DNA of 64,000 nucleotides from Gammaproteobacteria bacterium HGW-Gammaproteobacteria-1 (lineage in GTDB: Bacteria; Pseudomonadota; Gammaproteobacteria; Thiohalomonadales; Thiohalomonadaceae). Location: positions 186,001 through 250,000 of the forward strand of contig PGZL01000004.1 of the NCBI GenBank assembly GCA_002840095.1. Reading direction: 5' to 3'. Shown here one piece after another: positions 12,349-56,505 of this stretch (within the stretch, counting starts at the first letter, position 1; every line of letters begins with the position of its first letter). A model generated the notes under the pieces. That model did no database searches. It saw nothing but the letters and a program-made list of their open reading frames with translations, and was not told the DNA's origin. A program made the translations under genes and the position numbers.

Positions 12349-12358
12349 GACGAGCGCA

Positions 12359-39177: not shown

Positions 39178-39248
39178 GGTTTCAGCTTATCAATGGTTGG
39201 AAGCGGGGCATTCTGCCATAAGAAGGCAGGGACGAGGATCAGGTCCAG

Positions 39249-39280
39249 GGTTCAAGGTTCAAGGTTCAAGGTTCAAGGTT
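39249..39280. repeat. Four tandem GGTTCAA heptamers
   Basis: Four exact GGTTCAA copies (39249-39276) followed by GGTTTCGG. No inverted arm is close, although a GGTTCG/GAACC-rich pair lies at 40061-40115 on the other side of mlaA. Confidence 0.8.
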
Positions 39281-39309
39281 TCGGGTGGGGCGGTCGGTCG
39301 CTGTTGTCG

Positions 39310-40053
39310 TTACTGTGCAACCGGCTCGTCAGGGGGCAAATCGTCGAAGGCGTCGAGATCGAAGGCGGGCGCCGGCGGGTTACCGTCGTAGACCAGGTTC
39401 TGGCGCATCTGCAGGTAGCCCTCGCGCACGAACAGGTAGGGGTCAAGGGCGCCCTGGTCGACCAGGCGCGTGGTGCGCAGCAGGCCGGCGCGGATGTCGA
39501 CCACGGACAGGCCGATGACGGTGTAACGGGCGGTGTCGTCCTTGATGTTTCCGATGAGGTCGAACTGGGAGTAGTCCACCACGCGGCCGCTGCCGTCGCG
39601 CAGGGAGCTGGGGCCGAGGAAGGGGATGACCAGGTAGGGGCCGGGACCGGCGCCCCAGTGGCCCAGGGTCTGGCCGAAATCCTCGTTGTGCTTGGTGAGG
39701 CCCATGGGCGTGGCGACGTCGATCAGCCCGCCCAGGCCCACCGTGGTGTTCCACACCAGGCGCGAGAAATCGGAGGCGGCCTGGCCCAGCTTGAATTGCA
39801 GCAGGTCGTTGGCCAGCACCACCACGTCGCCCAGATTGCTGAAGAAATTGCTCACCCCGGTGCGCGCCGTCTGCGGCACCACCCGTACGTAACCCTCGGC
39901 CACCGGCTTGAGGATGGCGTTGTCGAAATCGGTGTTGAAGGCATAGGCGCCGCGGTTGAAGCTCTCCCAGGGATCGCGCGGATCACGCTCGCCGTGCACC
40001 GTGGCGCAGCCGGTGAGGGCGAGGAGGAGGGGAAGGACGAGGAGGCGCTTCAA
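39310..40053 (-). CDS. mlaA: Phospholipid-binding lipoprotein MlaA (VacJ)
   Basis: Outer-membrane lipoprotein removing mislocalised phospholipids from the outer leaflet. 247 residues; lipobox LTGC with Cys16, then DPWESFNRGAYAFNTDFDNAILKPVA, RTGVSNFFSNLGDVVVLAN, FGQTLGHWGAGPGPYLVIPFLGPSSLRD and YTVIGLSVVDIRAGLL, all MlaA hallmarks. It lies more than 17 kb from mlaFEDB, on the opposite strand, with the large biosynthetic operon and katG between. Confidence 0.95.
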   Translation of the reverse strand: MKRLLVLPLLLALTGCATVHGERDPRDPWESFNRGAYAFNTDFDNAILKPVAEGYVRVVPQTARTGVSNFFSNLGDVVVLANDLLQFKLGQAASDFSRLVWNTTVGLGGLIDVATPMGLTKHNEDFGQTLGHWGAGPGPYLVIPFLGPSSLRDGSGRVVDYSQFDLIGNIKDDTARYTVIGLSVVDIRAGLLRTTRLVDQGALDPYLFVREGYLQMRQNLVYDGNPPAPAFDLDAFDDLPPDEPVAQ

Positions 40054-40060
40054 GATGTCG

Positions 40061-40115
40061 GGTTCGCGGTTCGAGGTTTGCTGCGCACCTTACCGCTTTT
40101 TCATTCAACTTTGAA
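40061..40115. repeat. Short GGTTCG / GAACC element upstream of mlaA
   Basis: GGGTTCGCGGTTCGAGGTTTG faces CAACTTTGAACCCTC; heptamer units GGTTCGN in the left arm. It is a degenerate member of the heptamer family. The rest of the 150-base mlaA-PPTase gap shows no gene. Confidence 0.55.
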
Positions 40116-40205
40116 CCCTCACGCCACTTTCGCCTTGATTGCCGCCTCCGGTGCGGGGCGACCGGTGCGGAAGGTTCAGCGAACCTATGGTAGGTGCGGT
40201 GATTA

Positions 40206-40943
40206 TCAGTTTCGGAGCAGGTAACCTGCTGTAAAGAGATGCGTGTCACTGGTTTGGAAATGACCGTAAAAACTCAACTCGACAGGAAATTCGATTTCAC
40301 AATCCACGTTCGGTTTGAAGCAAAAGGTTTGGTTTTTTATATCGAAAGCCAAACTCACTGATTGAAATCCGAAGTAGCGTGTTAACAGCGGGTAGTAACA
40401 TTTGTAGAGGCATTCCTTGGCGCTGAAGATCAGCCTCTGTGGGAGTCCTGATTGCTCCAACAGAGAATGTTCCATGTCTGTGTGAATGTAGCGTTCAACA
40501 CCTTCGGGCAGGGGGGAAAGCGGTTCCACGTCCACCCCCATACCCACAATTTCCCCTTTTATAGCGCACGCCGCCACACAGAGATCATGGCAGTGGGATA
40601 TGGTACCTAGATAACCGGATGGCCAGACAGGTTCGCGCCGACTGCCCCAGAGGATGGGCTGCTGTGGCGCTTGCAGTTGCTGTAGCGCCTCGTGGGCTGC
40701 GTTTCGCCCCGCACGAAATTCCCTCTGTCTCTTCGCTGATGCTCCGTCGACTAATGCCTCTTCCTCGGCGCACAGAGGTGTCTGCCACATCTCCGCGCTG
40801 GCAATGACCAGGGCAGTTTCGGCAGGAAACAGATTGGTGAGTGGTATTGACAATAGGGCGTGGCTACTGACACCGAGGTTCGGTGGTGAGGTTTGAATTG
40901 TGAGGGGCTTGTTGAGGGCGCGCGACAAGTTTGACTCTGCCAT
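40206..40943 (-). CDS. 4'-phosphopantetheinyl transferase (EntD/Sfp-like)
   Basis: Loads the phosphopantetheine arm onto carrier proteins. 245 residues with RAGRNAAHEALQQL, WPSGYLGTISHC, the Mg-binding GMGVDVEP block and FSAKECLYKCYYP, the WxxKExxxK-equivalent. The likely client is the operon's own ACP. It is the last gene of the operon, six bases after the acyltransferase. The 3' half is conspicuously AT-rich relative to the rest of the window, in keeping with horizontal origin. Confidence 0.92.
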   Translation of the reverse strand: MAESNLSRALNKPLTIQTSPPNLGVSSHALLSIPLTNLFPAETALVIASAEMWQTPLCAEEEALVDGASAKRQREFRAGRNAAHEALQQLQAPQQPILWGSRREPVWPSGYLGTISHCHDLCVAACAIKGEIVGMGVDVEPLSPLPEGVERYIHTDMEHSLLEQSGLPQRLIFSAKECLYKCYYPLLTRYFGFQSVSLAFDIKNQTFCFKPNVDCEIEFPVELSFYGHFQTSDTHLFTAGYLLRN

Positions 40944-40949
40944 GGTGAA

Positions 40950-42386
40950 CTAGGAGTTGACCACTGATGAATCGCGTGTTTGCCGTTCATTGCCTCTCGC
41001 GTCCACGAGCTGCTCCAATTCCCAGAGAAATGGCTTGACGAACTGTCCGTCTATGTCACTGAAGCTGGAGCGGCGATAGACCAAATCCAGCTGCAGCCTA
41101 CCACCGATAGTGGGGGTGTGTATCACGAGGTCATAGGGGGGGACCAGGCAGCTGAATATGGTCATTGCCGAGATGGAGGGGCCCCCGGGACCGACGGTGG
41201 AGAAATCCTCCTCAATGACCCCTGGGTTGGAGTAGAGAATGTTCGTTCCCTGGGTTCGTTTCATGATCCAAAGCACGAGCGCGCGGGGTAGCGGGCTCTT
41301 GAACAGGGTGATGGCGCTCTCCATACGGCCCAACTCGACCTCCAGGCCCTCCTGGCGGGCGGCCGCCGTTTGTGCCTCGATCCTGGAGAATAGTTTCTGG
41401 TCCTCCAGTTCATGGGGAACTCGCAAGGTGCAGTCGATCATGTAACTGCGGAAAGTCTCCGCGTAGGCGGCGCCGATGAGTTTGCGCAGGCTGATGGCGA
41501 TGGTATAGACCGCGAGCGGATGCCTTCGCCGCTGGTAGCGTCCGATATACCGTACCAGCGCAGCCGAAAAAAGGGTGTTGATGGTCACGTTGTAGCGGCG
41601 AGCCGCCAGCGGCAGTTCCTCCCGCAGCTGCTGCGGCAGCACGATATGCCGGAAGTCCACGTCTCCCTCCGGAGGGGAAGGGTTCGCGCCGGATGCCGGT
41701 AACGATATCTGTGTCCTTGCCCGGGTGGCCATGCGCCGGGTGATCTCCAGGTTGGCCCTGGCCCAGCGAACAACGGGGGCCCATCCCGCAAACCAGTCGG
41801 GTCTGAGACGCTCCAGCGGGAGGTGCTCGAAGCGCGGCCCTTGCTCCCGTTCCGTCGCGGATTCCGGGGCTGTCTCTCCTGTTGTCCCCGCATACTCCCG
41901 CATCAATTCCACAAGGAAGATGTTGCCGCTCTTCACATCCGCCACGTCATGGGTGATGCTCAGATGGAGGCAGCTGCGCCGGCGATCGGCGGAGTGCACG
42001 AGGAGCAGGTGCACCGGTTCGTAGTCCCGGTTCACGCCGTTATTCCGGGCCACCTGCGCCATCAGATTTTCCCTGAATCCCGTGCTGTCGAAGTCGAGGG
42101 GATGTTCCGATGAGATGACGGTGAGGGCATTTCCGGAGAGATGGGTTCGGCGTATGCCCTCATCGGCCGTCAGCAGATCATGCAAATGGTCGAAGCGGCC
42201 GAGGGTGGTTTGCAGGGCGTGGCGAAGACGGTTGGGGTCGAGTTCCCCTTCCACTATGCAAACATGGCTGTTGGCGATCGGGAAGAGCCTCCGACCCCAG
42301 CGAAAAAAGCCGCTCAGGGGGTCTCTGTGGGCCCGCAGGTGGGAATCCATTGTCATCGCCTTCTCCTGTGCCTCGATCGTAGTCAT
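40950..42386 (-). CDS. HXXXD acyltransferase, condensation/PapA-like superfamily
   Basis: 478 residues. Catalytic HXXXD motif as His146-Asp150 (SITHDVADVKSG) in the first half, and a second-half scaffold including a TINTLFSAALVRYIGRY helix and VSNPG-like YSNPGVIEE, the pattern of chloramphenicol-acetyltransferase-fold condensation domains and PapA/alcohol acyltransferases. It is free-standing, with no attached carrier or adenylation domain. Likely esterifies or amidates an acyl chain made by the operon (inference). The start overlaps the barrel-protein stop by four bases. Confidence 0.8.
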   Translation of the reverse strand: MTTIEAQEKAMTMDSHLRAHRDPLSGFFRWGRRLFPIANSHVCIVEGELDPNRLRHALQTTLGRFDHLHDLLTADEGIRRTHLSGNALTVISSEHPLDFDSTGFRENLMAQVARNNGVNRDYEPVHLLLVHSADRRRSCLHLSITHDVADVKSGNIFLVELMREYAGTTGETAPESATEREQGPRFEHLPLERLRPDWFAGWAPVVRWARANLEITRRMATRARTQISLPASGANPSPPEGDVDFRHIVLPQQLREELPLAARRYNVTINTLFSAALVRYIGRYQRRRHPLAVYTIAISLRKLIGAAYAETFRSYMIDCTLRVPHELEDQKLFSRIEAQTAAARQEGLEVELGRMESAITLFKSPLPRALVLWIMKRTQGTNILYSNPGVIEEDFSTVGPGGPSISAMTIFSCLVPPYDLVIHTPTIGGRLQLDLVYRRSSFSDIDGQFVKPFLWELEQLVDARGNERQTRDSSVVNS

Positions 42387-43612
42387 GGCAGCGCCGCCTT
42401 CAACCCGAGGGTCAGTGTGGAGTGATAGATATCTGAAAATTCCTGCCGCTCGTGTTCGCCCGCCAGCTCGCCTAGGGCGAGTGCGGTGACCGAATCCGAC
42501 AGCTTGTATTCGACGTAGGCGGAGAGCTTCCTGCTGTGATCGGTCAGACTGTGGGTCGCCATCAGGCGCCAGTAGCCGTAGCTCTCCAGGGGATTGCTCT
42601 GCCACGCCAGGTAGAGGTAGTCGCGCCCCAGCAGCGCGGGTGCATAGCTCAGAGCCTGAGCTGCCCACAACAGCGATGATTCGGCACGTGCGAAGTAAGC
42701 CTCCTCTTCATCCGCCGTGTAGCCGTGGCCATAGTGGAGATACTCGAGATTGATCGACTGGCCGCTTTCGAATGCGTAGGCCGCTCCCAGCAGGGCGTCG
42801 GTGCGGCGCAGCGAGGGCGTTGCGATGGTGAAGGGCTGTGCCGCGTCTGCCGGAGAGCTCAGGGCGTTGGCAAGGGTCGAGGAGCGGGCCTCGGCATAGA
42901 GCAGCAGGGCGTCGCTCACCGTGCGTTGGCCATAGAGACCGAAGAACGGATCCAGGTCAGGAGTTTGCGATACCACCAGGCCACCCGCCCACTCATCGCC
43001 CCGGTGCTCGGCTTTCAACAACCAGGTGTCGCGCCAGACATCTTCCCTGTCGTGTCCCGAACCGGTGATCCAGGCGAGGCTCAGGGACTGTTCCCGGTCC
43101 GGTGCCCAGAGCAGTTTGGCGTTGTCCACCCCGCTCAGTTCCCGCAGCGGGTTGCTGCGGCCGTTGTCGAAGTAGAACGGGCTGGCCAGGGAGGCAAACT
43201 GCGCAGGTCCCCAATTGAGTATCTCGCGTCCTCCGCTCAGGCTCCAACTTTCCGATGACTGGAGCCTGATCTGCCACTGGCTGAGGTAGCCTTCGCGTTG
43301 TTGCCAACTATCGATGTCCGTGCGGTTTTCCTGCGCGAGGAGAATCGGGCGCATTGTCAGCTGCAGGTTGTCCCGTTGTGCCCGAAGATTGAGCCTGAGT
43401 TCGACGGTGGCGCTCTTCTCCGGCAGACGGGCGATGCTGTTGTCAGGATTGAGCAGACTTTGCTCCCGTAGATCCATGTGGCTCAGGTAGCCATAGGCCT
43501 CGCCGTCCCAGGAGATTTCCCAGGTGTTCTCTACGGCCGCCGCCAGAGAGCCACAGTAAAATCCGGTGCAAAGCGCCGCGCCGGCCAGCCAGCCGGACCA
43601 TCTGTCCCTCAT
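42383..43612 (-). CDS. Predicted outer-membrane beta-barrel protein
   Basis: 409 residues: signal peptide (about 25 residues ending SLAAAVE), then alternating amphipathic strands with frequent aromatic ends, including LRLNLRAQRDNLQLTMRPIL, SWSLSGGREILNWGPAQFAS and a C-terminal HSTLTLGLKAALP strand. The GREILNWGP segment resembles a motif in DUF1302/alginate-porin-like barrels. Probably the outer-membrane end of the operon's export route. It overlaps the LolA-like gene's stop by four bases. Family is not assigned with certainty. Confidence 0.72.
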   Translation of the reverse strand: MRDRWSGWLAGAALCTGFYCGSLAAAVENTWEISWDGEAYGYLSHMDLREQSLLNPDNSIARLPEKSATVELRLNLRAQRDNLQLTMRPILLAQENRTDIDSWQQREGYLSQWQIRLQSSESWSLSGGREILNWGPAQFASLASPFYFDNGRSNPLRELSGVDNAKLLWAPDREQSLSLAWITGSGHDREDVWRDTWLLKAEHRGDEWAGGLVVSQTPDLDPFFGLYGQRTVSDALLLYAEARSSTLANALSSPADAAQPFTIATPSLRRTDALLGAAYAFESGQSINLEYLHYGHGYTADEEEAYFARAESSLLWAAQALSYAPALLGRDYLYLAWQSNPLESYGYWRLMATHSLTDHSRKLSAYVEYKLSDSVTALALGELAGEHERQEFSDIYHSTLTLGLKAALP

Positions 43613-44349
43613 CGCAATGCGCCAAGGTCGAACTCGGCTGGCGGGATCTTGCGCACCTGTATGTTCCCGAAATTCATGTGGGTCTCTGCATCGATCAGTG
43701 CATCCCGGATGATCATCTGGCTGACGAACGGAATGTGCCGGCCGTCAAATTCGATGGTATTCCCGTACTCGAACCGTGCTGTCTTCAGTAGTTTTCCGGA
43801 GAGGGAATAGAATTCGGCTTTGACGCCGACGGTCCTCACCGCCGATATCCAGTAGCGTACACGGTCATAGGTCACCCGCTTATGGCGCGCGGCCAACTCG
43901 AGGACATGGCAGGCCTCTCCGTTCACCGGTTCTTCGCCAATCAGGCGGGCATCGTAGTCTTCGGCGTAGTTGGTCGCCGCAATGTCGCCGTTCGAGGCCT
44001 GGCCGCTCAGCCGCTGTCGCGGTGAGATGGGCACGGGTTTCGACAGTCCCGGGCGCGTGAGCCACATGTTGCGTCCCACCTGCAACAGCTTCGAGCCTCT
44101 GAAGCGTGGCGGCTCAAGGGTCTCCGCCACGCTGGCGTCGTTAACCGCGCGCACCTCCAGCCGCTGGCTGTCGGAGACCGCCCCGTCTTCATGGGACGTT
44201 AGTTCGATCTTCCAGACGATCCCGGGCAAGCCGCCGCCGCGGGCGTGATCGGCCCGTTGCAGCAGGGCCTGGGCATCGGGTTCCCCTCGGGCATGGCCTG
44301 TCAGGGCAAGGAGCGCTACGGCGAGCAGCCAATGCAGGTGGATATTCAT
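43609..44349 (-). CDS. Outer-membrane lipoprotein-sorting (LolA-fold) periplasmic protein
   Basis: 246 residues with a signal peptide ending TGHARGEPD. The mature part opens AQALLQRADHARGGGLPGIV and contains RLEVRAVND, RGSKLLQVGRNMWLTRPG, RLSGQASNGDIAATNYAEDY and ARHKRVTYDRVRYWIS, matching the outer-membrane lipoprotein-sorting protein family, an open beta-barrel that holds acyl chains. These proteins commonly sit beside RND or ABC exporters of lipids. Here the ABC permease is 11 bases upstream and a barrel is immediately downstream. Confidence 0.85.
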   Translation of the reverse strand: MNIHLHWLLAVALLALTGHARGEPDAQALLQRADHARGGGLPGIVWKIELTSHEDGAVSDSQRLEVRAVNDASVAETLEPPRFRGSKLLQVGRNMWLTRPGLSKPVPISPRQRLSGQASNGDIAATNYAEDYDARLIGEEPVNGEACHVLELAARHKRVTYDRVRYWISAVRTVGVKAEFYSLSGKLLKTARFEYGNTIEFDGRHIPFVSQMIIRDALIDAETHMNFGNIQVRKIPPAEFDLGALR

Positions 44350-44360
44350 AGTGGTCTCCC

Positions 44361-45620
44361 TCAGACATGCCCCAGGGCATCGATGATGTGCTGCCGGGCT
44401 GAGCGAAAGGACGGCAGAAAGGCCGCCAGCATGCCGACCGCCAGCATCAGCACCATGGTCAGGAGGATGCGCGGATAGTCCATGTCCACCAGCAGCGGAA
44501 CAGCATTGGCTCCGTTGGGGGGGGTGTAGGCGATATGCGACCCGTTGATGCCGTAGCGGACACCCACGGTCAATAGAAAGCCGACACCGCAACCCAGCAG
44601 GGTCAGCAGCAAGGTCTCGGTGGCGAAGAGTCGGATTACCCCGCTGCGCTTGAGGCCGATGGCACGCAGGGTGCCGATCTCCCGCGTGCGCTCGATCACC
44701 GTCATGCCCACGGAGTTGGCCACGCTCATCAATACCACCGCGAGCACGATGGAGAAGATGAATCCGAAGATCATGTTGAACATGCCATGCACCTGACGGT
44801 AAAAGCTGGAGAGCTCCTGCCAAGTCGCAATTTCCAGGTCGAAGCCAGCGGCGCTCAGCTTGGCCAGCAAGCGGTCCCGTATCGCCTCCGTCTGCGTCAC
44901 ATCCTCCAGCAGCAAGGTCAGGCGGTCGGCCCGGCCCTCGGCATCAAGCAGACTCTGGGCCAGCGCCAGCGGCACGAAGGCGAACTTGTCGTTGGTCCCG
45001 GCATTGCCGGTATTGAAGCTGCCGTCCACCGTCACATCCATGGCATTGGCTTGGCCGGATAGGGTATTGACCAGCAGGATTGCCTCCCCACCGACATGAA
45101 GGTGCAAAAGTTCGACCAGGCCGGCGCTGAGCGCCACACCGCTCTCCCGCGCAGGATCGAGTTTCTTCGCCAATCTGTCGTACATCCCGCTCCGCGCTTC
45201 CTGCTCGGTCAACATGTTTTCCTGAAGCCGGTCCATGGCCTGGGGCGATATCCCTTCGGCGATGAAGATGGTGCTGGCACGTCCGTTGGTCACCAAGCCT
45301 GAAAAGGCGAGGCGTGGTGCAATCAGTGTGATTTGTGGTTCGTGCTGCAGCGCAGCTTCGATGCGGGCCACCTCGTCGAGGGTGAGCAGATAGCGCTGCG
45401 GGTCGAGCTTGCCGGCCGTACTCATGCCGCGCTTGCTCAGGGTGAGATGGCCGAGCAGTTCACCGTGGATGGACTGGCGGGCCAGGCCGCTATAGATATT
45501 GTGGGTGTAGCCGGCGAAAAGGCTGATAGCTGCAAAGCCGAAGGCGATCGCCAGCAAGGTTACGATTGAACGGCGATGATTTCTGGTCAAACCGCGTAGC
45601 GCCAGGGTAAGGGTATTCAT
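44361..45620 (-). CDS. ABC transporter permease, MacB/FtsX (LolCE-like) family
   Basis: 419 residues: first membrane helix near residue 20-40 (HRRSIVTLLAIAFGFAAISL), a large periplasmic domain of about 230 residues, then three helices (FIFSIVLAVVLMSVANSVGM; ATETLLLTLLGCGVGFLL; ILLTMVLMLAVGMLAAFLP). VIERTREIGTLRAIG is the cytoplasmic coupling helix of FtsX-type permeases. Such mechanotransmission transporters extract lipoproteins or lipids from the inner membrane. With its ATPase it would hand cargo to the LolA-like protein. Confidence 0.9.
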   Translation of the reverse strand: MNTLTLALRGLTRNHRRSIVTLLAIAFGFAAISLFAGYTHNIYSGLARQSIHGELLGHLTLSKRGMSTAGKLDPQRYLLTLDEVARIEAALQHEPQITLIAPRLAFSGLVTNGRASTIFIAEGISPQAMDRLQENMLTEQEARSGMYDRLAKKLDPARESGVALSAGLVELLHLHVGGEAILLVNTLSGQANAMDVTVDGSFNTGNAGTNDKFAFVPLALAQSLLDAEGRADRLTLLLEDVTQTEAIRDRLLAKLSAAGFDLEIATWQELSSFYRQVHGMFNMIFGFIFSIVLAVVLMSVANSVGMTVIERTREIGTLRAIGLKRSGVIRLFATETLLLTLLGCGVGFLLTVGVRYGINGSHIAYTPPNGANAVPLLVDMDYPRILLTMVLMLAVGMLAAFLPSFRSARQHIIDALGHV

Positions 45621-46351
45621 GGGGTCGATTCGTCACGTTCGATGCAACCATCCTGCAGCAGTACTTTTCGGTCGACATGTGCTAACAGTCGCGGATCATG
45701 GGTGGTAAAGACAAAGGTTACGCCTCTCGCCCGATTCATCTCGCGCATCATGTCGATGATCATGAGGCTGTTATGGGAGTCCAGGTTTGCGGTCGGTTCG
45801 TCTGCGATCACCAGCCGGGGTTCAACCACCAGTGCACGGGCGATGGCGACGCGCTGACGCTGTCCGCCGGAGAGTTTATCCGGCCGGGAATGAATAAACT
45901 TTGCCAGACCCACATCCTGTAACGCCGCCGTTGCGCGGGTGCGCGCCTCGCGCCCGCCGACACCGCGAATGTGCAAGGGCAGCATTACATTTTCCAGTGC
46001 GGAGAGTACCGGCATCAGATTGAAGCCCTGAAAGATGAAGCCGATATTCTTGCCGCGAAACGCTGTCAGCTCATCGTCGCTCAAGTCACCTGTACAATGG
46101 CCATCGAAATATATCTCGCCGGTTGTCGGGGCATCAATCAACCCGATCAGGTTCATCAACGTCGATTTGCCGCTGCCGGAAGGGCCCCACACCGCCAGGA
46201 ATTCTCCGGCATGGATGTCGAACCTGATCGCGTGCAGCGCATCGATTGGCGTTTCTCCCAGCATGAAGCGACGGCCCACTTCGCGCAGTTGCAGCAGCGT
46301 GGAGGCAGGCCGCTGCGTCGGGACGGAAACGCGGGGGTGACTGAGAGACAT
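45617..46351 (-). CDS. ABC transporter ATP-binding protein, LolD/MacB type
   Basis: 244 residues. Walker A WGPSGSGKSTLMN, Q-loop IFQGFNLMPVLSALENV, signature KLSGGQRQRVAIARAL, Walker B LVIADEPTANLD and the switch His in TTHDPRL. The ENVMLPL and FQ-FNL features are typical of LolD/MacB ATPases that pair with FtsX-type permeases. It overlaps the permease start by four bases. GAGG precedes the ATG. Confidence 0.93.
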   Translation of the reverse strand: MSLSHPRVSVPTQRPASTLLQLREVGRRFMLGETPIDALHAIRFDIHAGEFLAVWGPSGSGKSTLMNLIGLIDAPTTGEIYFDGHCTGDLSDDELTAFRGKNIGFIFQGFNLMPVLSALENVMLPLHIRGVGGREARTRATAALQDVGLAKFIHSRPDKLSGGQRQRVAIARALVVEPRLVIADEPTANLDSHNSLMIIDMMREMNRARGVTFVFTTHDPRLLAHVDRKVLLQDGCIERDESTP

Positions 46352-46367
46352 CGGTAGCCTCGCTTGG

Positions 46368-47921
46368 TCAGCTGGCGAAGAGCTTGGTGATGGCTTGACT
46401 ATAGCGGCCCTGTTCGCGGAAGTAGCGGCCTACCAGGGTCCAGGCGGAGAGCATCGAACCCATATAGCCGCCGCCGGGGAAGGTCCAGGCGCCTACCTGG
46501 TAAAGCCCTTTGATGGGATAGCGCATGGGGAAGCGTTTGAGCAGGCCCGATTGATCCACTGTTTGGGCGAAGCCGTTGATGCTCCCGAGGTGATTGCCGG
46601 TATATTTCGTCATGGTCCGAGGCGACCCCGCTTCGATCACCTCAATGTGCCGCGTGAGTCCGGGGAGCCGGCTTTCGGCCTGCGCTATGAGCTGCTGCAC
46701 CAGGGCCTCCTTCTTTTCGCGGTAGGCCTCTTTCGACAAGTCCTGCCAGTCGCGGCCGGAGAGCAGGACAAAAATTCCCATCGTCGATTTACCTGCCGGG
46801 GCGAGACTCGGGTCCAGGTTGGAGAAGAAGTTGAGGAACCAGCAGACCTCCTCGCCATCGACCTTTCCGGTGACCATCTTCTCGAACTGGGCCGACGAAT
46901 CCAGATCGTAGGTGTGGAAGACGCTGTACTCCTCCTCGGAGACGCCCAATTCTGCAGGCGTGCAGTCGAGTCCCAGGTATATCTGGAAGCCCGACATGGC
47001 GGGGCGGATATGTTCCAGCCGTTTGAGATAAGCGGCGGGAAAGGCCTCCCGGCCCGTCAGCTCCACCACCGCGTGTGGGGCGATGTTGGAGATGACGATG
47101 GGGGCAGATATGCGGCCGAGCTTGTTGGCGCTGACCCCTGTCACCCGGTTGTCCTCGACATGCAGGCGCACTGCGGGAGTGGATAGCGAAACCTCGCCGC
47201 CGTGTTCCCTAATCACCTCTGCCAAGGCATCGGAGAGCATCTGCGAGCCCCCCTTGATGGCATAGCCGCCATGGGCCAGATAATCGTAGAAGGGGTACGA
47301 AAAGTAGGAAAACGCCAACTGCTTCGGCGGCAGTCCGTAGTAGGGCCATTGCGCGGCGAGCACCTCCTTCAGTCGCGCGTTGTCGGTATAGCGCGAAAAA
47401 AAGTCATGCACCGTTGCCTTGTCGTAGCGCAACAGGCGAGGGTAGCGGAAGGGGGTGATGGCCAGCTTGAGCCAGAACGGCAGGCCAGAGTAGAGATAGT
47501 CGCCGACCTCTCGGAACATACGTCCGGCTTCGTCGAACAATCGGTCGATGTTCGCTGCTTCGTCAGGAAAACGTTCGCTCAGGAAACGCTTGTAGCCTTC
47601 GACTCCACCGTGCTTGACTAGCAATTCATCTTCGTTGGTCACCAACCGATAGATGCTTTTTTGCGGAATGAAGCTCACACGATCGGCGACCCCGCAAGCC
47701 CGCAGGCAGCGATAGGAGGGGCTGTCCGGAGTAGCTCCGTTCAGTGCGTGCAGAGAGACATCGAAAGTGAAGCCGCCACGTTCGAAATTGGTGGCATAAC
47801 CGCCCGGCTTGGTATGCCGGTCGAGCACCAGTACCTTGCGCCCCTGTTGTGCGAGCAGGCTACCGGCGGCCAGGCCGCCGATACCCGCACCCACGATAAT
47901 CATGTCGTAGGCGTCGCTCAT
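46368..47921 (-). CDS. FAD-dependent oxidoreductase, CrtISO/retinol-saturase-like
   Basis: 517 residues. N-terminal dinucleotide-binding motif MIIVGAGIGGLAAGSLLAQQ with DRHTKPGGYATNFERGGFTFD, the amine-oxidase/phytoene-desaturase second signature, and a C-terminal FAD-binding GLYQVGAWTFPGGGYMGSMLSA. The closest relatives by pattern are carotenoid isomerases and all-trans-retinol 13,14-reductases, which reduce or isomerise conjugated double bonds. No carotenoid pathway gene is nearby, so an acyl polyene substrate is more plausible here (inference). It overlaps the thioester-reductase stop by four bases. Confidence 0.87.
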   Translation of the reverse strand: MSDAYDMIIVGAGIGGLAAGSLLAQQGRKVLVLDRHTKPGGYATNFERGGFTFDVSLHALNGATPDSPSYRCLRACGVADRVSFIPQKSIYRLVTNEDELLVKHGGVEGYKRFLSERFPDEAANIDRLFDEAGRMFREVGDYLYSGLPFWLKLAITPFRYPRLLRYDKATVHDFFSRYTDNARLKEVLAAQWPYYGLPPKQLAFSYFSYPFYDYLAHGGYAIKGGSQMLSDALAEVIREHGGEVSLSTPAVRLHVEDNRVTGVSANKLGRISAPIVISNIAPHAVVELTGREAFPAAYLKRLEHIRPAMSGFQIYLGLDCTPAELGVSEEEYSVFHTYDLDSSAQFEKMVTGKVDGEEVCWFLNFFSNLDPSLAPAGKSTMGIFVLLSGRDWQDLSKEAYREKKEALVQQLIAQAESRLPGLTRHIEVIEAGSPRTMTKYTGNHLGSINGFAQTVDQSGLLKRFPMRYPIKGLYQVGAWTFPGGGYMGSMLSAWTLVGRYFREQGRYSQAITKLFAS

Positions 47922-49165
47922 TTCAGGAGTTCCGCCGGACTGCCATGGCCGGAGGGCAAACTGTTCCGATTGCGCTCTTCCATGCGCTGAAAGGCTGCGG
48001 CGTCGAAATGCTGCTCTACGACAAAGCGTACGCTGGCTTCGATCACCTCCGCCATCGGCGGCAGCGAGATGCCGCCCCGGGCGAGGCGCTGCATGGTCTC
48101 CTCAACCTGGAAATCCCGGTCGTAGGTCAGGTAGGTTTGATAGATCCCCAGCAGTCCGCTCAATGCCTGGTGGATCTGGCCACCGTTCACCTGTTGTTCG
48201 AATATCTCGGGGGGCAGAAATCCGGGTTTCTGGATGCTTACGATATCCGGTGCCCGGTGACGGATGATGTCATAGGCGATGTCGATTACCTCATCCAGGC
48301 GCAGGCTTCGCGCCACGCCGGCAGCCAGATGGAAGGTGCGATTCAGTGTGTCAGGCTCGCCACTGAGATAGGCGATGGCATCGCAGACATAGTCGATCGG
48401 CACCATATCGGATCTCACCTCCGGCCGCGCCGGAAGAACGCTAATCCTGGCCCGGCCGGAACAGGCGAGCTTCATGAACTCGAGAAAGCCGAACAGCTTG
48501 CGCACCCGGCCGTCGGCGGAGAGGCAGATCACCTGGCTGGGTCGGTAGATGGTTACCGGCATTTCGCGCCGGGCGTCGACAGCCATCTGCTCGGCTTCGA
48601 GTTTCGACTGTTCGTAGGCGTTCCAGAAGCCCTGTCCACACGCGAGCTCATCCTCTCGCAATGGGCCCTGGCGGTCCCCGACCACATAGGAGGTGGACAC
48701 ATAGTGCAATTCGAAGCGCTCGGGATTGGCATCCCGGCATTGGCGGGAGAAATTGATCACGGCCTTAGTGGTGTCCACATTGCCGGCCCGGGATTCGGGG
48801 AGGGAGGCGCTGAAGCGGACATTGGCCGCCAGATGGAAGAGCTTCTCCGTGCTGGCGGCAAGCTGTTGTGCCGTCGTTTCATCGAGACCCAGCAGCGGCT
48901 TGCTCACATCCCCCGGCAGCACCCGGATCCGGTGGCCCTCGGCTGCCAGTAGTTCGGGATTGTCCAGCGCACGTGCCAGGCGCGTCTCGGCCTCCTGGGG
49001 TGAGACGGCCCGGACTACGGCAACCAGGTCCATCTCCGGATAGCGACGCAGCAGTCTCGGCAGGAGTTCCATTCCGAGGGCGCCGGTCGCGCCGGTGAGC
49101 ACAATTGTCTTGTGATTCGTCTTGTCCTGCACAGATAGTTCCTTGCCAGAGTTCGGTGTTGTCAT
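47918..49165 (-). CDS. Thioester-reductase-like extended SDR protein
   Basis: 415 residues. NAD(P)-binding TIVLTGATGALGMELLPRLL, HLAANVRF, the catalytic Tyr-Lys in WNAYEQSKLEAEQM and the VTIYRPSQVI strand give the NAD-binding_4 (fatty acyl-CoA/thioester reductase) family, which releases carrier-bound chains as aldehydes or alcohols. An in-frame ATG ten codons upstream and a GTG at 49132 with a good AGGAA site are alternative starts. In this operon it is the obvious chain-release enzyme (inference), since no thioesterase is present. Confidence 0.82.
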   Translation of the reverse strand: MTTPNSGKELSVQDKTNHKTIVLTGATGALGMELLPRLLRRYPEMDLVAVVRAVSPQEAETRLARALDNPELLAAEGHRIRVLPGDVSKPLLGLDETTAQQLAASTEKLFHLAANVRFSASLPESRAGNVDTTKAVINFSRQCRDANPERFELHYVSTSYVVGDRQGPLREDELACGQGFWNAYEQSKLEAEQMAVDARREMPVTIYRPSQVICLSADGRVRKLFGFLEFMKLACSGRARISVLPARPEVRSDMVPIDYVCDAIAYLSGEPDTLNRTFHLAAGVARSLRLDEVIDIAYDIIRHRAPDIVSIQKPGFLPPEIFEQQVNGGQIHQALSGLLGIYQTYLTYDRDFQVEETMQRLARGGISLPPMAEVIEASVRFVVEQHFDAAAFQRMEERNRNSLPSGHGSPAELLK

Positions 49166-49238
49166 TCCACGGACGGACCCCTTGTGGCCCGGCATTCGGT
49201 GGCGGTCTCGTTACACCAGATGCCGATCGCATGCGTCC

Positions 49239-49979
49239 TCAGGCGGTCAGCCCGCCGTCGATCACGAAGGTTTGTCCCGTCAGGTAGCGACCACCCTCGC
49301 CGAGTAGAAACTCGATCATGGCGGCCACCTCGTCCACGCTACCCATGCGCTTGAGCGGCACATGGGCGAGCAGCCGCTTGCGCTCTGCTTCAGGCATCCT
49401 CTCGGCCATCTCGGTTTCGATGAGCCCAGGAGCGACGGCGTTGATCCGCAGGTTGAAGCGGCCGAGTTCTCTGGCCAGTGACTTCGTCATACCGATCAAC
49501 GCCGCCTTTGTCGCACCGTAGTTTGATTGCCCCGGATTTCCCTTGAAGGCAGTCACCGAACTCATGTTGATGATGCTGCCATCGCCGTTTTCCGCCATTT
49601 TCGGAACGAACGCATGAATGGTGTGGTAGGCGGAGTCCAGATTGCTGCGCAAGACTTCGTGCCACTTGTCCTGACCCATCATGAATATAAGGGAGTCGCG
49701 CGTAATTCCCGCATTGTTCACCAAACCCACAGGCGCACCATGGTCCTGGCAAAGCGCATCGCTCATCTCATGCACCCGCTCCCCGTCGCTCATATCGCAC
49801 TGGATGCCCCGGCACCAGACACCGTCCCGGCTGCATTCGTCGGCCAAGGCATCTGCCGTCTCCCGAGAGGAGAGGTAGGAGAAGGCCACGTTGTAGCCGT
49901 TGCGGGTCAGGCGCCGTACTATTCCGGCACCGATGCCCCGACTGCCGCCCGTCACGAAAATCCATCGCTGGTTAGCCAA
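49239..49979 (-). CDS. 3-oxoacyl-ACP reductase (FabG-like)
   Basis: 246 residues, classical SDR. Cofactor motif VTGGSRGIGAGI, VNNAGITRD, catalytic Ser in IINMSSVTA, the Tyr-x3-Lys in GQSNYGATKAAL and VAPGLIETEM, all as in FabG. It would reduce the beta-keto group produced by the operon's ketosynthase. It is less GC-rich than core fab genes would be expected to be in this genome. Separated from the diiron gene by 58 bases. Confidence 0.93.
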   Translation of the reverse strand: MANQRWIFVTGGSRGIGAGIVRRLTRNGYNVAFSYLSSRETADALADECSRDGVWCRGIQCDMSDGERVHEMSDALCQDHGAPVGLVNNAGITRDSLIFMMGQDKWHEVLRSNLDSAYHTIHAFVPKMAENGDGSIINMSSVTAFKGNPGQSNYGATKAALIGMTKSLARELGRFNLRINAVAPGLIETEMAERMPEAERKRLLAHVPLKRMGSVDEVAAMIEFLLGEGGRYLTGQTFVIDGGLTA

Positions 49980-50037
49980 TTTCCTCTCCCTATTGCTGAT
50001 GGGGCAGTTCCACTTCTACGAGGCTACGGTGAGCCTG

Positions 50038-50952
50038 TCAGGCGACGAACTCGATGTTGGTGGGACTGTCTTCCGAGAACTTGGCCCGGGTATGCCCGGA
50101 GGCTGTGCGCAGGTAGTCGAGATGCATGTCCTGGACCTCTTTCTCACTGTAGGGATTATCGTCGCCAAACAGTTCACCCAGGATTCGGTACTTCTGCCGG
50201 GTGATCCGCCGGATGGGGTCGAGCTTGTCGCCCTGATTCGAGAGAAAGAGCGGCAGCATCTTGTTGAGTCCTTCGAAGTAGGTCTCGTGAACCATGGCGT
50301 TGTGGTAGAGCAGACCTCGCTCCAACGATGCCAGAGCCGCCTTTTTGTGGCGCGGATCGGCATTGATCATGTCCTTGATCAGCGCTGTCCAGGCGGCGAT
50401 ATGACGCGCCTCGTCATTGCGGATGTTAGCCAATGCCGCCTTCAGCTCTGGGTGATGGACGCGATTCACCACATCGCGATAAAGCTCCGTATTAATCACT
50501 TCCGAGAAGAGGTGGGTGAGGATATAGCTGTACTTGTCCCAGTAGCGCCGCTCCTCGTAGCACCAGATGTAGCGTTTTCCGAAATCACGAACATCCACCT
50601 GCGCAATGTAATCCGTCTTGCCGGTAGTCACATAGTGGTACAACAAGCCGAGCACGATGCCGTGGCGCATCTCTTCGTAAACGATGGTGTACATATAGGA
50701 GAAAAGCGGGGACCAATCGGCAACGAGCTCTTCGGGATAGCCGTTCTTCTTGGCGTTAATCAGCATGTCATAGAACTGGGTGGTTGAAGCCTGGCCCGAA
50801 TACTCGCCGTCGCGAAGGCAGTCGAGAAGTTTGACGATCTCACGATCGTGTTCATCGAGTTCCGCCAGCCAGGGGAAGTCGTAACGATTGGCGTTCCAGC
50901 GGTTTTCGTCGGAAAGGCATCCGAACTTGGCAATTGTCTCTAGTCCACTCAT
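50038..50952 (-). CDS. Ferritin-like diiron protein, acyl-ACP-desaturase/oxygenase-like
   Basis: 304 residues, mostly helical, no membrane segment. Two ExxH motifs in the style of soluble acyl-ACP desaturases: EEMRH (residues 93-97; EENRH in plant desaturases) and DEARH (180-184; DEKRH). Further helix Glu residues at 151 and 156 (FSEVINTELYRD) and near 50 could complete the four-helix iron site. The family spans desaturation, N-oxygenation (AurF) and hydroxylation, and sequence alone does not decide which. Because the next gene upstream is an ACP, an ACP-bound acyl chain is the likely substrate (inference). Confidence 0.78.
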   Translation of the reverse strand: MSGLETIAKFGCLSDENRWNANRYDFPWLAELDEHDREIVKLLDCLRDGEYSGQASTTQFYDMLINAKKNGYPEELVADWSPLFSYMYTIVYEEMRHGIVLGLLYHYVTTGKTDYIAQVDVRDFGKRYIWCYEERRYWDKYSYILTHLFSEVINTELYRDVVNRVHHPELKAALANIRNDEARHIAAWTALIKDMINADPRHKKAALASLERGLLYHNAMVHETYFEGLNKMLPLFLSNQGDKLDPIRRITRQKYRILGELFGDDNPYSEKEVQDMHLDYLRTASGHTRAKFSEDSPTNIEFVA

Positions 50953-50975
50953 GTCACACCTCTTGTGAATTGGGA

Positions 50976-51221
50976 TCAGGCCAGGGCCATACGATCTTCG
51001 ATGTAACTGCAGAACTGGCCGAGATTGGTAATCTGGCCGGAGGTGAAGTCGTCAAAATCGATTTCGGCGCCGTATCGCTTACGGATGGCGAGTTGCAGGG
51101 AGACATAGTCCAGGCTCACCAGGCCGAGTTCCTGCAGGCTGGTTTCCTGGCGCATTTCGTCCGGTTCGAAATCAACGAGTTTGCCAATCTCCGTGGTGAG
51201 GAAGTCAAAGGTATCACTCAT
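50976..51221 (-). CDS. Acyl carrier protein
   Basis: 81 residues. The phosphopantetheine attachment Ser36 lies in ELGLVSLDYVSLQLAI, a variant of the usual DSL motif with Val in place of Asp just before the Ser (LVSLD). Helix-rich, acidic, about the size of AcpP. The ATG overlaps the dehydratase stop region by eight bases. Dedicated to the operon, given its own PPTase. Confidence 0.92.
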   Translation of the reverse strand: MSDTFDFLTTEIGKLVDFEPDEMRQETSLQELGLVSLDYVSLQLAIRKRYGAEIDFDDFTSGQITNLGQFCSYIEDRMALA

Positions 51222-52044
51222 ACATCGCTCCTTGAGTTGTGGCAGGTCGAATCGTTCTGGCCATCAGACCGATTTGCACGACCTGCTCGAGGTTGCCGTT
51301 AATCCATACCGGGATTTCAACCATCAAAAATACCGAGTCCCTGGTGAGGATTTCGTCTGTCTTGCAGTAGCCGTATTCGAAGCTGGATATTTTGTTGAAA
51401 TCCAATCGTTGCAGCAGCGGGCCGCAAAAAATGTCGTGGTGGTGAGTCTGCATGGTCACGATGTTTTCCGGGGATGGTAGTCCCGGCATATCTGTGCCGA
51501 CGTACTTGGCGGCCACCTCATGGAAAATCTCGTCGGCGTGGTGGCGGAGATAGCGGGAGAACATCATGGCGTCGATCGCGATCCATGCGGCGGGAGCAGC
51601 TGGGAACCGGGAGCCGAAGCCCTCCAGTTCTCGACGCACTTCCTCCGGTGGGACTGCCAGTCGCCGATATTTTTCATAGGGCGCCGGATTGAAATCTACG
51701 ACCGCGCAATGCCCGCTGATCATTGTCTGTGCATCGCCGGCCTTCGATAACTTGAAGCGTATCTGCCGGTTCGGATCGACAACCCTCGATTCCAGTCGAT
51801 AGTCGGCATGAAGCGGCATTGCCTGGCGCAGCATGGCGCTCCACTGGAGCCAGCCGTCGTCGGCCCAAGTCATGGCTGAGTGGGAGGACTTAAGCGGCAT
51901 CATGGCCAACATGCCGTGCATCACGACGCCACTCTGGCCGATCGCCGCCTCTGCGATTTCTTCGTCGAAGTGGATCGGGTTGTAATCCCCCGAGTAGTCG
52001 GCCCAAGCCTGGAGTTCCGCCTGATTGAAACGCAGCAGGGTCAT
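51214..52044 (-). CDS. MaoC-like hot-dog dehydratase/hydratase
   Basis: 276 residues. N-terminal MaoC signature: AWADYSGDYNPIHFDEEIAEAAIGQ with the D-x-N-P-x-H catalytic core, then GVVMHGMLAMM, the (R)-specific hydratase/dehydratase pattern. The longer C-terminal half (HHHDIFCGPLLQRL; VFLMVEIPVWINGN) looks like a second, degenerate hot-dog domain. It would dehydrate the 3-hydroxyacyl-ACP made by the FabG-like enzyme. It overlaps the KS gene by four bases. Confidence 0.85.
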   Translation of the reverse strand: MTLLRFNQAELQAWADYSGDYNPIHFDEEIAEAAIGQSGVVMHGMLAMMPLKSSHSAMTWADDGWLQWSAMLRQAMPLHADYRLESRVVDPNRQIRFKLSKAGDAQTMISGHCAVVDFNPAPYEKYRRLAVPPEEVRRELEGFGSRFPAAPAAWIAIDAMMFSRYLRHHADEIFHEVAAKYVGTDMPGLPSPENIVTMQTHHHDIFCGPLLQRLDFNKISSFEYGYCKTDEILTRDSVFLMVEIPVWINGNLEQVVQIGLMARTIRPATTQGAMYE

Positions 52045-53300
52045 TGGTTCGGGCTCGCGAAGATTAAGGCGCTATTGGAACCGCCGAAACCGTAATTCAC
52101 GTTCATGATGCGGTGAATTTCGTCGTTACGGCGGTGGACGTTGGGAATGAAGTCCAGATCGCACTCGGGATCGGGGTTCGCCAGGTGTATGGTTGCCGGC
52201 ATCACACCTGTCTCGAAGGTTTTCAGGCAGAAAATCGATTCGATCGCTCCGGCGCCGCCGACCAAGTGCCCCGTATAGGACTTGGTGCTCGATATGGGGA
52301 TGTTGTAGGCATGCTCGCCCAAAGCCAGTTTGAGTGCCTTTGTTTCGTTGAGGTCGTTGAGGGGTGTCGATGTTCCGTGTGCATTGATGTAGTCGATGGA
52401 CTCGGGTGTTGCCCCGGCCTGGGCGAGCGCCGAGGAGATCGTCTTCGCGCGGGCCAGTAAATCCTCCGCGGGGGAGGTGATGTCCCTGGCGTCAGAGTAG
52501 TTGCCATAGCCGATGACCTCACCCAGTATCCGTGCCCCGCGTGCCTGCGCGGAGGCCATATCTTCGAGGCAGAGCACCGCGGCCCCCTCTGAGAGCACGA
52601 ATCCGCTGCGGTCGGCGCTGAAGGGGCAGCAGGCTTTTTCGATCGCGTCCTGTTCTTTGCTCAGTGCGCGCAGGGCATCGATGCTCCAGACGCAGAAATC
52701 GGCGCGAATGCTTTCTCCGCCGCCGGCGATCATTACCTTTGCGCGTCCCGAGCGGATGATCTCGTAGGCATCGCCGATGGCAATGCTGCCGGTGGCGCAT
52801 GCGGCGATGGGGGTGTTCTGATAGCCCCGCAGATTCCAGTGCATTGAAATGGCCGCGGTGGCCACGTTGGGCATGACTATCAAATTCGAGAAGGGTGACG
52901 CCATCCCTACGTCATGGTAGTTCTTGATCTCGACCGTAGCCTCGTCCAGGGAACCCCAACCGGTACCGAAGATAACCCCGCGCTCGAAGGGGTCGTAGCA
53001 GCGGTCCAACTCGTCCTTATGGCCGAAGGCCATAGTGACAGCCTCGGCGGTGACGGCCATTCCAAGCTTTGCGAACTCCGGCAAAAATTTGAGGATGGCT
53101 TTCGGAAAGCCTTTCATGGAGGGCTTGTCCTCCATCTTTCCGAAAAACCTGGAGACTATGTTTGGATCCTGGAGCGGTACCGACTTATAGCCCACTTTGT
53201 AGTGGGTGATGGAGTTCCATATTTCCTCGACGCTGTTTCCCAGCGAACAGACGGCGCCATAACCGGTGATTGCCACTCGGCGGGGATGATTGTTTGACAC
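52041..53300 (-). CDS. Beta-ketoacyl-ACP synthase (FabF/KAS II-like)
   Basis: 419 residues from the GTG start; catalytic triad Cys168 (PIAACATGSIAIG), His308 (NAHGTSTPLND) and His345 (KSYTGHLVGGAG). Decarboxylative Claisen condensing enzyme. There is no partner chain-length-factor gene, so it acts alone like FabF. The GTG is preceded by AAGGGA nine bases upstream; an upstream TTG at 53330 lies in a palindrome and is less likely. First gene of the operon, with a good promoter about 160 bases upstream. Confidence 0.92.
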   Translation of the reverse strand: MSNNHPRRVAITGYGAVCSLGNSVEEIWNSITHYKVGYKSVPLQDPNIVSRFFGKMEDKPSMKGFPKAILKFLPEFAKLGMAVTAEAVTMAFGHKDELDRCYDPFERGVIFGTGWGSLDEATVEIKNYHDVGMASPFSNLIVMPNVATAAISMHWNLRGYQNTPIAACATGSIAIGDAYEIIRSGRAKVMIAGGGESIRADFCVWSIDALRALSKEQDAIEKACCPFSADRSGFVLSEGAAVLCLEDMASAQARGARILGEVIGYGNYSDARDITSPAEDLLARAKTISSALAQAGATPESIDYINAHGTSTPLNDLNETKALKLALGEHAYNIPISSTKSYTGHLVGGAGAIESIFCLKTFETGVMPATIHLANPDPECDLDFIPNVHRRNDEIHRIMNVNYGFGGSNSALIFASPNQ

Positions 53301-53317
53301 GTGGATAATTCCCTTTA

Positions 53318-53330
53318 TTGAATGATTCAA
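53318..53330. promoter_or_regulatory. Palindrome just upstream of the ketosynthase start
   Basis: TTGAATGATTCAA, six-base arms around a single G, 18 bases upstream of the GTG codon; could be an operator or leader structure. Confidence 0.45.
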
Positions 53331-53411
53331 AATCTTCCATAATTTGTTACCACTGCATCCCGATTACCGACCTCGGCCCGGCATTCGCTGGTTCCCCTGT
53401 CTGGTACTCAG

Positions 53412-53429
53412 GCGTTATTCAAATAACGC
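53412..53429. promoter_or_regulatory. Perfect 18-bp palindrome in the operon leader
   Basis: GCGTTATT-CA-AATAACGC, eight-base arms, located about 30 bases downstream of the predicted transcription start. Suits a dimeric regulator site. Confidence 0.6.
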
Positions 53430-53461
53430 AAACCAACACATCCATCCTAAAAGCCGCGTCG

Positions 53462-53491
53462 ATAGTACGGTTATTGGATTCTGTGAGTCAA
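53462..53491 (-). promoter_or_regulatory. Putative sigma-70 promoter of the biosynthetic operon
   Basis: On the minus strand: -35 TTGACT (53491-53486), 18-base spacer, -10 TACTAT (53467-53462). It is the best promoter match in the region and leaves a leader of about 155 bases. Confidence 0.6.
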
Positions 53492-53923
53492 GCGCGCAAA
53501 TCTCCCTTTGAACGTTGATGCCATAAATTGTTAACTCGATCACTCAAAATGAAAGCGTTTGCCCCCCCCGGTTTACCGGACAGTTCAAAAAAATCAGTCT
53601 CTTGGCCTCAGTCTTCGAGGGTCGCGACAGGAAAAAAAAGGTGACGAGAAATTAAGGTGACAGATAGAGCTCCCCGTTTCCCGGATATGTGGATAAGCAA
53701 CTTCCGCATAGTTCATCGATTGATATAGACACAGGCGATTGTAGAAAGCCTCCATTTAAAACGTTAGCCGCGCGGGAGGGACGCTATCCTCATACACCGG
53801 TTTTTCGACTGACTGCTTGTCAGGGCTGAGGTTGTTCATTGGTGTGAGAGTTCCGCATCACATCTGCCCGTTGAAGTTTGAACCTCCTGTTTCCTGGGCG
53901 TGTTCTGGGTAAGAACGGTGACG

Positions 53924-53957
53924 GGAAAAAGCCGCCGGGACGCATGCCCCGGCGGCG
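53924..53957 (-). terminator. Intrinsic terminator of katG
   Basis: On the minus strand a stem of GCCGCCGGG pairing with CCCGGCGGC around a short loop is followed by TTTTT. Confidence 0.85.
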
Positions 53958-53994
53958 CTTGTCCTACCCGGCCTCGCGGATCGGTCCCGCGGGC

Positions 53995-56268
<2,274 letters not shown>

Positions 56269-56311
56269 CTATCAGCGGGGACGGGGCACCCTGGAGGCAG
56301 GGGGAGGGGCT

Positions 56312-56497: not shown

Positions 56498-56505
56498 GGT
56501 GAGGC

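Follow-up and report, generated by a model that had tools for sequence, protein, structure and literature searches.

Three described systems offer points of comparison for the locus reported here, a 13-gene operon at positions 40206–53300 of a 64,000-nucleotide stretch (the window) of contig PGZL01000004.1 from Gammaproteobacteria bacterium HGW-Gammaproteobacteria-1. In the mycobacterial phthiocerol-ester pathway, the HXXXD acyltransferase PapA5, the Drr ATP-binding cassette (ABC) exporter and the LolA-fold carrier LppX serve one surface lipid; this pathway uses type I polyketide synthases (PKSs) and operates in a different envelope. The PKS proteins of the heterocyst-glycolipid (hgl) system are large and multidomain, and its exporter DevBCA works with TolC. 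In PMC8064123 and PMC11804610, the hgl acyl chain is described as carrier-bound, with HglB (acyl carrier protein, ACP, plus thioester reductase, TER), a ketoreductase (KR), a dehydratase (DH) and a phosphopantetheinyl transferase (PPTase), and the ABC exporter (devBCA) as being needed for delivery of the envelope lipid. PMC3949708 assigns discrete ketosynthase (KS), ACP, DH, KR, LolA, exporter and acyltransferase proteins to the aryl polyene, xanthomonadin, arcuflavin and flexirubin clusters, as in the operon, and adds a chain-length-factor-like partner for the KS, an AMP ligase and XanB2-type starter supply. We regard the operon as an inserted, recurrent variant of the type II acyl-chain clusters that have their own putative route of envelope export, with a diiron protein family outside Pfam cut-offs at its centre.

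All 13 genes lie on the minus strand and contain no internal stops. Read from 53300 down to 40206, they are as follows.

52041..53300, minus strand: KS, a FabF-like condensing enzyme with Cys-His-His (PF00109/PF02801)
51214..52044, minus strand: MaoC-type dehydratase, 276 amino acids (PF01575, E 6.5e-8, residues 7-47 only)
50976..51221, minus strand: dedicated ACP, 81 amino acids (PF00550)
50038..50952, minus strand: diiron protein, 304 amino acids, candidate on-ACP desaturase/oxygenase (ligand residues, ferritin-like predicted fold)
49239..49979, minus strand: KR, a FabG-like short-chain dehydrogenase/reductase (PF13561, PF00106)
47918..49132, minus strand: thioester reductase (PF07993, E 6.9e-52)
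46368..47921, minus strand: CrtI/CrtISO-type flavoenzyme, accessory (PF01593, Amino_oxidase)
45617..46351, minus strand: ABC ATPase, LolD/MacB type (PF00005)
44361..45620, minus strand: ABC permease, FtsX/MacB_PCD, LolCE-like (PF02687, PF12704)
43609..44349, minus strand: LolA-like periplasmic carrier, start ATG 44349 (PF17131, E 5.7e-35)
42383..43612, minus strand: porin-like outer-membrane beta-barrel (predicted structure, Foldseek)
40950..42386, minus strand: HXXXD acyltransferase, condensation/PapA superfamily, start ATG 42386 (PF00668, 32.2 bits)
40206..40943, minus strand: Sfp/EntD-type PPTase (PF17837, PF01648)

Pfam families were matched above cut-off by 11 of the 13 proteins, barely so in the case of the HXXXD enzyme, and the majority of NCBIfam models scored below their own cut-offs for the operon proteins. 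The diiron protein and the barrel gave no Pfam match above cut-off and were assigned by way of conserved ligand residues and predicted structures. The initial annotation had described one unbroken minus-strand operon of 13 genes, which agrees with the intact open reading frames (ORFs) and with the recurrence of the set in other genera. It had also placed the KS start at GTG 53300, which remains the likeliest choice (the mechanical ORF opens at TTG 53330). Its description of coupled junctions throughout was slightly overstated: nine of the 12 junctions overlap or measure ≤16 nt, and wider gaps separate ACP from the diiron gene (23 nt), the diiron gene from KR (58 nt) and KR from the reductase (43–106 nt, depending on the start chosen; alignment suggested GTG 49132 for the reductase, the ORF of which opens at 49195). 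As the set recurs in other genera, the gene arrangement is not a product of chance.

Thioester reductase and ABC transporter genes are common to the operon and the hgl system, with the NCBIfam reductase model below cut-off here. The acyltransferase (AT), chain-length factor (CLF), enoyl reductase (ER) and glycosyl transferase given for hgl in a figure legend of PMC11804610 were not recognized among the operon's 13 proteins. In the operon, unlike in hgl, the type II proteins are discrete, and a diiron enzyme, an HXXXD enzyme, a LolA-like protein and a barrel are encoded with them. It differs from the aryl-polyene-type clusters in having a single KS, reductive release, the diiron enzyme, an ABC exporter and the HXXXD enzyme. 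No match to an AMP-binding domain was obtained among the 13 proteins, and a search of the five other full-length loci of the same type (L003–L007) with the window KS as query found no second KS. The absence of a chain-length factor and of a thioesterase, which together with the single KS had been noted earlier, was borne out for the 13 proteins with both Pfam and NCBIfam. The HXXXD enzyme, ABC exporter and LolA-type carrier are also alike in the phthiocerol-ester pathway, with a marginal PapA5 match in the window. By analogy, the operon logic resembles both the heterocyst-glycolipid and the aryl-polyene systems, and the defining gene set of neither is complete in it. Among the matches listed, no description of the gene set was found by title or abstract in the open-licence PMC full-text literature, and neither this literature nor the genome scans returned a characterized cluster matching the whole set.

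We propose, with about an even chance of being right, that the operon is a specialized-lipid cassette in which an acyl chain is built on the ACP, released reductively, esterified by the HXXXD enzyme and exported by the ABC/LolA-like/barrel proteins. Gene content, conserved residues and linkage, and the insertion are observed and the folds are predicted; the reactions, their order and the exporter cargo all belong to the proposal. KS, KR and the MaoC-type DH would extend and process the chain on the dedicated ACP, which would be charged by the operon PPTase here and presumably by a PPTase encoded elsewhere in relatives. The diiron protein would then desaturate or oxygenate the ACP-bound chain, and the NAD_binding_4 reductase would free it, with a primary alcohol the likeliest product and an aldehyde the alternative. 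An ester bond between the chain and a second acyl or other partner would be formed by the HXXXD enzyme, and the LolD/FtsX-type ABC transporter, the LolA-like carrier and the porin-like barrel would bring the product to the outer membrane. A further redox step may be added in this strain by the CrtI-type flavoenzyme.

The core enzymes are consistent with these roles. The best NCBIfam model for KS was fabF TIGR03150 (392 bits, below cut-off), and residues C168, H308, K340 and H345 were invariant in 10/10 aligned sequences. KR scored above cut-off with the FabG subfamily model NF009466 (236.1 bits, cut-off 222) and below it with TIGR01830 (259 bits); its best Pfam family, PF13561, has a name that also covers enoyl reductases. 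In the reductase, Y194, K198 and the TGxTGxxG motif were conserved in 7/7 sequences. Conservation of catalytic residues makes the aligned enzymes look competent. NCBIfam TIGR01746 matched the reductase below cut-off (159.9 bits), and its nearest solved relative was the MxaA release domain (E 2e-31); MxaA releases a primary alcohol. By sequence relationship this is an enzyme of the reductive-release type, as the earlier description of the operon had it. The flavoenzyme had the gamma-carotene desaturase 4rep as its nearest solved relative. No separate enoyl reductase was recognized among the 13 proteins, an observation that would suit a conjugated polyene pigment built by KS, KR and DH and akin to aryl polyenes or xanthomonadins, to which the flavoenzyme and the diiron protein add unsaturation and which LolA and the exporter place in the outer membrane. 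The arcuflavin, xanthomonadin and flexirubin clusters, as described in PMC3949708, likewise carry LolA, exporter, acyltransferase, ACP, reductase and dehydratase genes. We nevertheless consider a polyene product unlikely: no match to a chain-length-factor-like protein, AMP ligase, XanB2-type protein or glycosyl transferase was seen among the 13 proteins, the KS has FabF as its best-scoring model, the release enzyme is a reductase, and three window-type relatives lack the flavoenzyme.

The diiron protein is a rare, conserved family outside Pfam cut-offs. Its putative ligands E50, E94-x2-H97, E151, E156 and E181-x2-H184 were invariant in 11/11 sequences. E/ExxH/E/ExxH is the ligand plan of the soluble acyl-ACP desaturases, and both this plan and the ferritin-like fold are also common to other ferritin-like diiron enzymes. 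The structure was predicted with a pLDDT of 83.4. The top VIA-align rows for the model were acyl-ACP desaturases (Z 15.3, rmsd 4.1, 251 aligned), on a scale where a top Z of ∼14 is usual for helical models that lack a clear match; phenol hydroxylase (Z 14.5) was less than 1 Z away and thus tied with them, and sMMO (Z 14.0) and VlmB (Z 13.6) lay within 2 Z of the top. Foldseek placed R2lox first (E 0.002), with no match at or below 0.001, and a search of solved structures with the diiron sequence returned marginal matches only (E 0.13 or worse). The plant and mycobacterial soluble acyl-ACP desaturases are alike in fold and residue plan, but differ in sequence (∼11–14% identity in the structural alignments). 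As FA_desaturase_2 (PF03405) scored 18.7 bits against a cut-off of 22.7, the protein is described as desaturase-like and not as a member of that family. Action on an ACP-bound chain, as proposed in the initial annotation, is plausible on the predicted fold, which is nearest to the acyl-ACP desaturases; the tie with other enzymes means that the model supports a class, not a reaction.

The same fold comparison bears on hydrocarbon formation, in which the reductase would give an aldehyde and the diiron protein would deformylate it, as in the cyanobacterial AAR/ADO pair. Cyanobacterial ADO (Z 12.8) and a Kitasatospora protein with ADO activity (Z 13.4) were among the fold matches, but the desaturases scored higher (Z 15.3). 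Four gamma-type loci also retain the diiron gene, and their surroundings yielded no reductase orthologue (a genome-wide reductase search was not made). Retention without a neighbouring reductase favours an ACP-bound substrate and weakens the aldehyde-deformylase reading, which we regard as very improbable.

The gene set is rare, yet recurs as a set. At an E value threshold of 0.001, the diiron protein was found in one of 369 genomes of the class and one of 20 of the family, and at 1e-20 in one of 398 of the phylum, in each case the window's own genome; none of 72,556 plasmid records contained it. When 84,980 species, each represented by a single genome, were scanned with exact short-peptide patterns, which give a lower bound, at least 10 diiron loci emerged from 21 matching stretches, in Sulfuritalea, Azoarcus (two), Zoogloea, Azonexus, Undibacterium, Erwinia, Tenebrionibacter and Pseudomonas (two). 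Strong matches in three family samples (3/249, 1/343 and 2/298 genomes) all corresponded to loci already known. Weak matches to the diiron profile in 15 of the 249 genomes (E 1.8e-5 to 8.8e-4, residues ∼114–227) were taken as probable distant ferritin-like proteins; matches of this strength would not show in the samples of 343, 298 and 398 genomes, for which the threshold was 1e-20.

Full-length window-type (beta-type) loci comprise L003–L007, from two Azoarcus, Zoogloea, Azonexus and Undibacterium; L002 was left out of full-length counts, as its contig begins just before the ACP gene. Gene positions in relatives were taken from tblastn. The order KS-DH-ACP-diiron-KR-reductase is kept in 5/5 of these other full-length loci. 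An ACP orthologue is present in 10/10 related loci, and a DH orthologue in all nine others that reach that far (L002 does not). The HXXXD gene lies 30–481 nt from KS in L003, L004, L005 and L007; in L006 the distance is ∼4.7 kb, with the export genes in between. The two genes share a strand in L003–L005 but not in L006 and L007. One copy was found in each of the five window-type genomes searched (the window's own, L003, L005, L006 and L007), and none in a genome-wide search of the four gamma-type genomes or in the L002 genome. Identity matrices for KS, DH, ACP, diiron protein and KR were strongly correlated (r 0.92–0.97, Mantel p ≤0.003, 8–9 loci), in part a reflection of the deep beta/gamma split. 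L004 and L010, which nearly duplicate L003 and L008, were omitted from these comparisons, and so was the barrel, for which taxa were too few. The shared core order, together with an HXXXD gene that stays nearby despite changes of position and strand, argues for one pathway. The initial annotation had likewise proposed a single pathway on a dedicated ACP, and the linkage kept in L003–L007 and the core matrices speak for it; widely scattered homologues lacking such linkage, which it had named as the contrary outcome, were not what was seen.

The proposal that all 13 genes form the unit was upheld only in part: linkage is conserved, but the flavoenzyme and the PPTase fall outside the shared set. 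Besides the window, L002, L006 and L007 carry the flavoenzyme, whereas the Azoarcus and Zoogloea genomes gave no match of orthologue grade; the PPTase turned up in none of the other loci read. Proteins that matched the flavoenzyme weakly in other genomes (E 6e-8 to 9e-4) were set aside as different flavoproteins. The operon of 13 genes is thus one version of a locus built around a smaller biosynthetic set, of seven genes. An ABC-ABC-LolA-barrel set follows 3' of the reductase in L003–L005. In L006, an Azonexus metagenome-assembled genome, a divergent export set (3246–7156) is placed before KS, with identities to the window of 43% (ATPase), 31% (permease), 26% (LolA-like) and 25% (barrel); these identities suggest that an exporter of like type was exchanged or was recruited independently. 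No export set was found beside the core in L007.

Four gamma-type relatives (L008–L011) keep ACP, KS, DH, KR and the diiron protein (the last 51–53% identical), and reductase, HXXXD and exporter orthologues were not found in the stretches read. The core thus appears to be a reusable cassette, and the diiron protein would need no such reductase beside it. This sharing of the core lends some weight to a diffusible small molecule, a signal or antibiotic exported through the ABC transporter and barrel, in place of an envelope lipid: in L009, Pfam places genes of the LuxI, LuxR and AMP-ligase types next to the core, and one ORF of L011 looks by eye like the LuxI of L009. Small molecules, too, can be secreted by ABC exporters of the FtsX/MacB type. 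The beta-type loci, however, have the reductase and the HXXXD gene and mostly the LolA-like carrier, neighbours that the LuxI-linked loci lack, and no regulator turned up in them (no search aimed at regulators was made). We assign the small-molecule reading a low probability.

For the HXXXD enzyme, H144 and D148 of the motif were invariant in 6/6 sequences. The Pfam Condensation family PF00668 was matched marginally (32.2 bits, cut-off 30.6) and the PapA5 model at E 4e-4 (19.4 bits, cut-off 396); a profile search returned condensation domains of nonribosomal peptide synthetases as distant matches (E 5e-4), and the single sequence had no match among solved structures. On the export side, the ABC ATPase scored 225.9 bits with the LolD model TIGR02211 (cut-off 307.75) and the permease 84 bits with TIGR02212 (cut-off 362.45). 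Neither the LolD nor the LolC/E equivalog model of the LolCDE system is thus passed, and there is a single permease gene here. The best of five barrel models had a mean pLDDT of 66.8 (the others 37–52) and consists of a signal-like helix followed by antiparallel strands; Foldseek matched it to porins, OprD-family proteins and AlgE, an alginate exporter, with a best E of 1.7e-10 and query TM values of ∼0.43–0.57. Lipid-trafficking and outer-membrane parts, as first reported for the operon, are accordingly recognizable from sequence and predicted structure as an ABC transporter, a LolA-like protein and a porin-like barrel. A second LolA_like gene was observed in the host outside the operon (contig C1 324896–325414, L083), and two congeners (L082, L084) gave LolA_like matches that score like it.

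The acceptor of the HXXXD enzyme is not readable from its sequence and the trafficking part is Lol-like, both of which would be compatible with decoration of a pre-existing envelope glycolipid with a new acyl group by the HXXXD enzyme and exporter, with no free ester lipid formed. No match to a glycosyltransferase or lipopolysaccharide enzyme was obtained among the 13 proteins (the other genes of related loci had no systematic annotation), and this decoration seems to us decidedly improbable.

Several observations weigh against the specialized-lipid cassette. From the results above, these are the ties in the fold comparison of the diiron protein, the calibration of its Z scores and the R2lox match, the share of the beta/gamma split in the core correlations, the lack of a recognized separate enoyl reductase and the export set missing beside the core in L007. 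The gamma-type core, without reductase, HXXXD or exporter neighbours, indicates that the core can serve other ends. The HXXXD enzyme is weak by profile, and its L007 copy is 28–29% identical. LolA_like PF17131 occurred in all 10 genomes tested and in six of 14 controls, and a family this common is not diagnostic on its own. Matrices for the export genes compared with those for core and HXXXD genes gave r −0.12 to 0.85 over four loci, with p >0.05 in 15 of 21 comparisons.

If the specialized-lipid reading is right, a compact gene set mobile between bacteria makes and exports an envelope lipid undescribed within the open-licence literature; it would include a diiron family not covered by Pfam, probably acting on ACP-bound chains, and an ABC/LolA-like/barrel route of lipid delivery. 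As several of the carriers are cultured strains with names, the product can be sought directly by mutant comparison. More tentatively, the operon may do in a Gram-negative bacterium what surface ester-lipid pathways do in other envelopes: a fatty alcohol derived from a chain desaturated or oxygenated on its ACP by a new diiron family is esterified by the HXXXD enzyme and a dedicated ABC/LolA-like/porin-like route places the free ester lipid in or through the outer membrane. This would add a new class of outer-membrane lipid and, with it, a route dedicated to lipid export that terminates in a barrel.

The operon is set apart from its surroundings by composition. GC content was 0.595 in 40206–53300 compared with 0.663 and 0.666 in the flanks, and third-position GC (GC3) was 0.57–0.78 in operon genes compared with 0.90–0.91 in the neighbours mlaA and katG. 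Empty sites were found in two congeners: window sequence up to 40061 and from 56312–56313 on is 78 nt apart in L071 (congener G125), and sequence up to 40047 and from 56312–56313 on is 95 nt apart in L072 (congener G380). The near-adjacent flanks delimit an inserted segment, with approximate bounds, that includes katG.

40062..56311, no strand: inserted segment, operon plus katG (flanks nearly adjoin in two congeners)

None of four congeners (completeness stated as 84–100%) contained the diiron gene, and the cassette was most likely acquired horizontally. The katG gene (53995–56232) lies inside the segment, yet has host-like GC; given relatives 82% and 86% identical at other places in the two congeners, it may have moved. 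A mobile-element cause of the insertion was considered and set aside, there being no tRNA gene in the window and short repeats in 38500–57000 resembling chance matches. No recombinase beside the operon turned up in the ORF list (flanking ORFs had no systematic search). The PPTase gene, absent from every other locus read, had the lowest GC3 of the operon genes (0.57); GC3 and distribution together suggest that it was acquired separately.

Two pattern matches were recorded between the operon and katG.

53462..53491, minus strand: promoter-like site 5' of KS (consensus match only)
53931..53956, minus strand: terminator-like hairpin between katG and operon, 3' of katG (pattern match only; 11 pairs, then a T run)

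Seven promoter-like sites were observed in the region compared with 4.5 expected from shuffles. For terminator-like sites the figures were six observed and 13.0 expected; as this is fewer than the shuffles predict, the count by itself is no evidence.

Further observations were made on the gamma-type loci. In L009 (Pseudomonas, 670–12785), Pfam matches comprise the core together with a flavin reductase, a PF10118 protein, LuxI and LuxR, and further a second KS, a thioesterase and an AMP ligase; on these matches L009 is a candidate quorum-controlled metabolite cluster. L011 (1672–11896) resembles L009 by eye, including the LuxI-like ORF. L008 (1545–7122) and L010 (1996–7574), from Erwinia endophytica and Tenebrionibacter, have near-identical diiron proteins and a small core, which is followed in both by a PF10118-type gene (with Pfam support in L010 only, by eye in L008). 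At the start of L008, ORFs appear transposase-like by eye.

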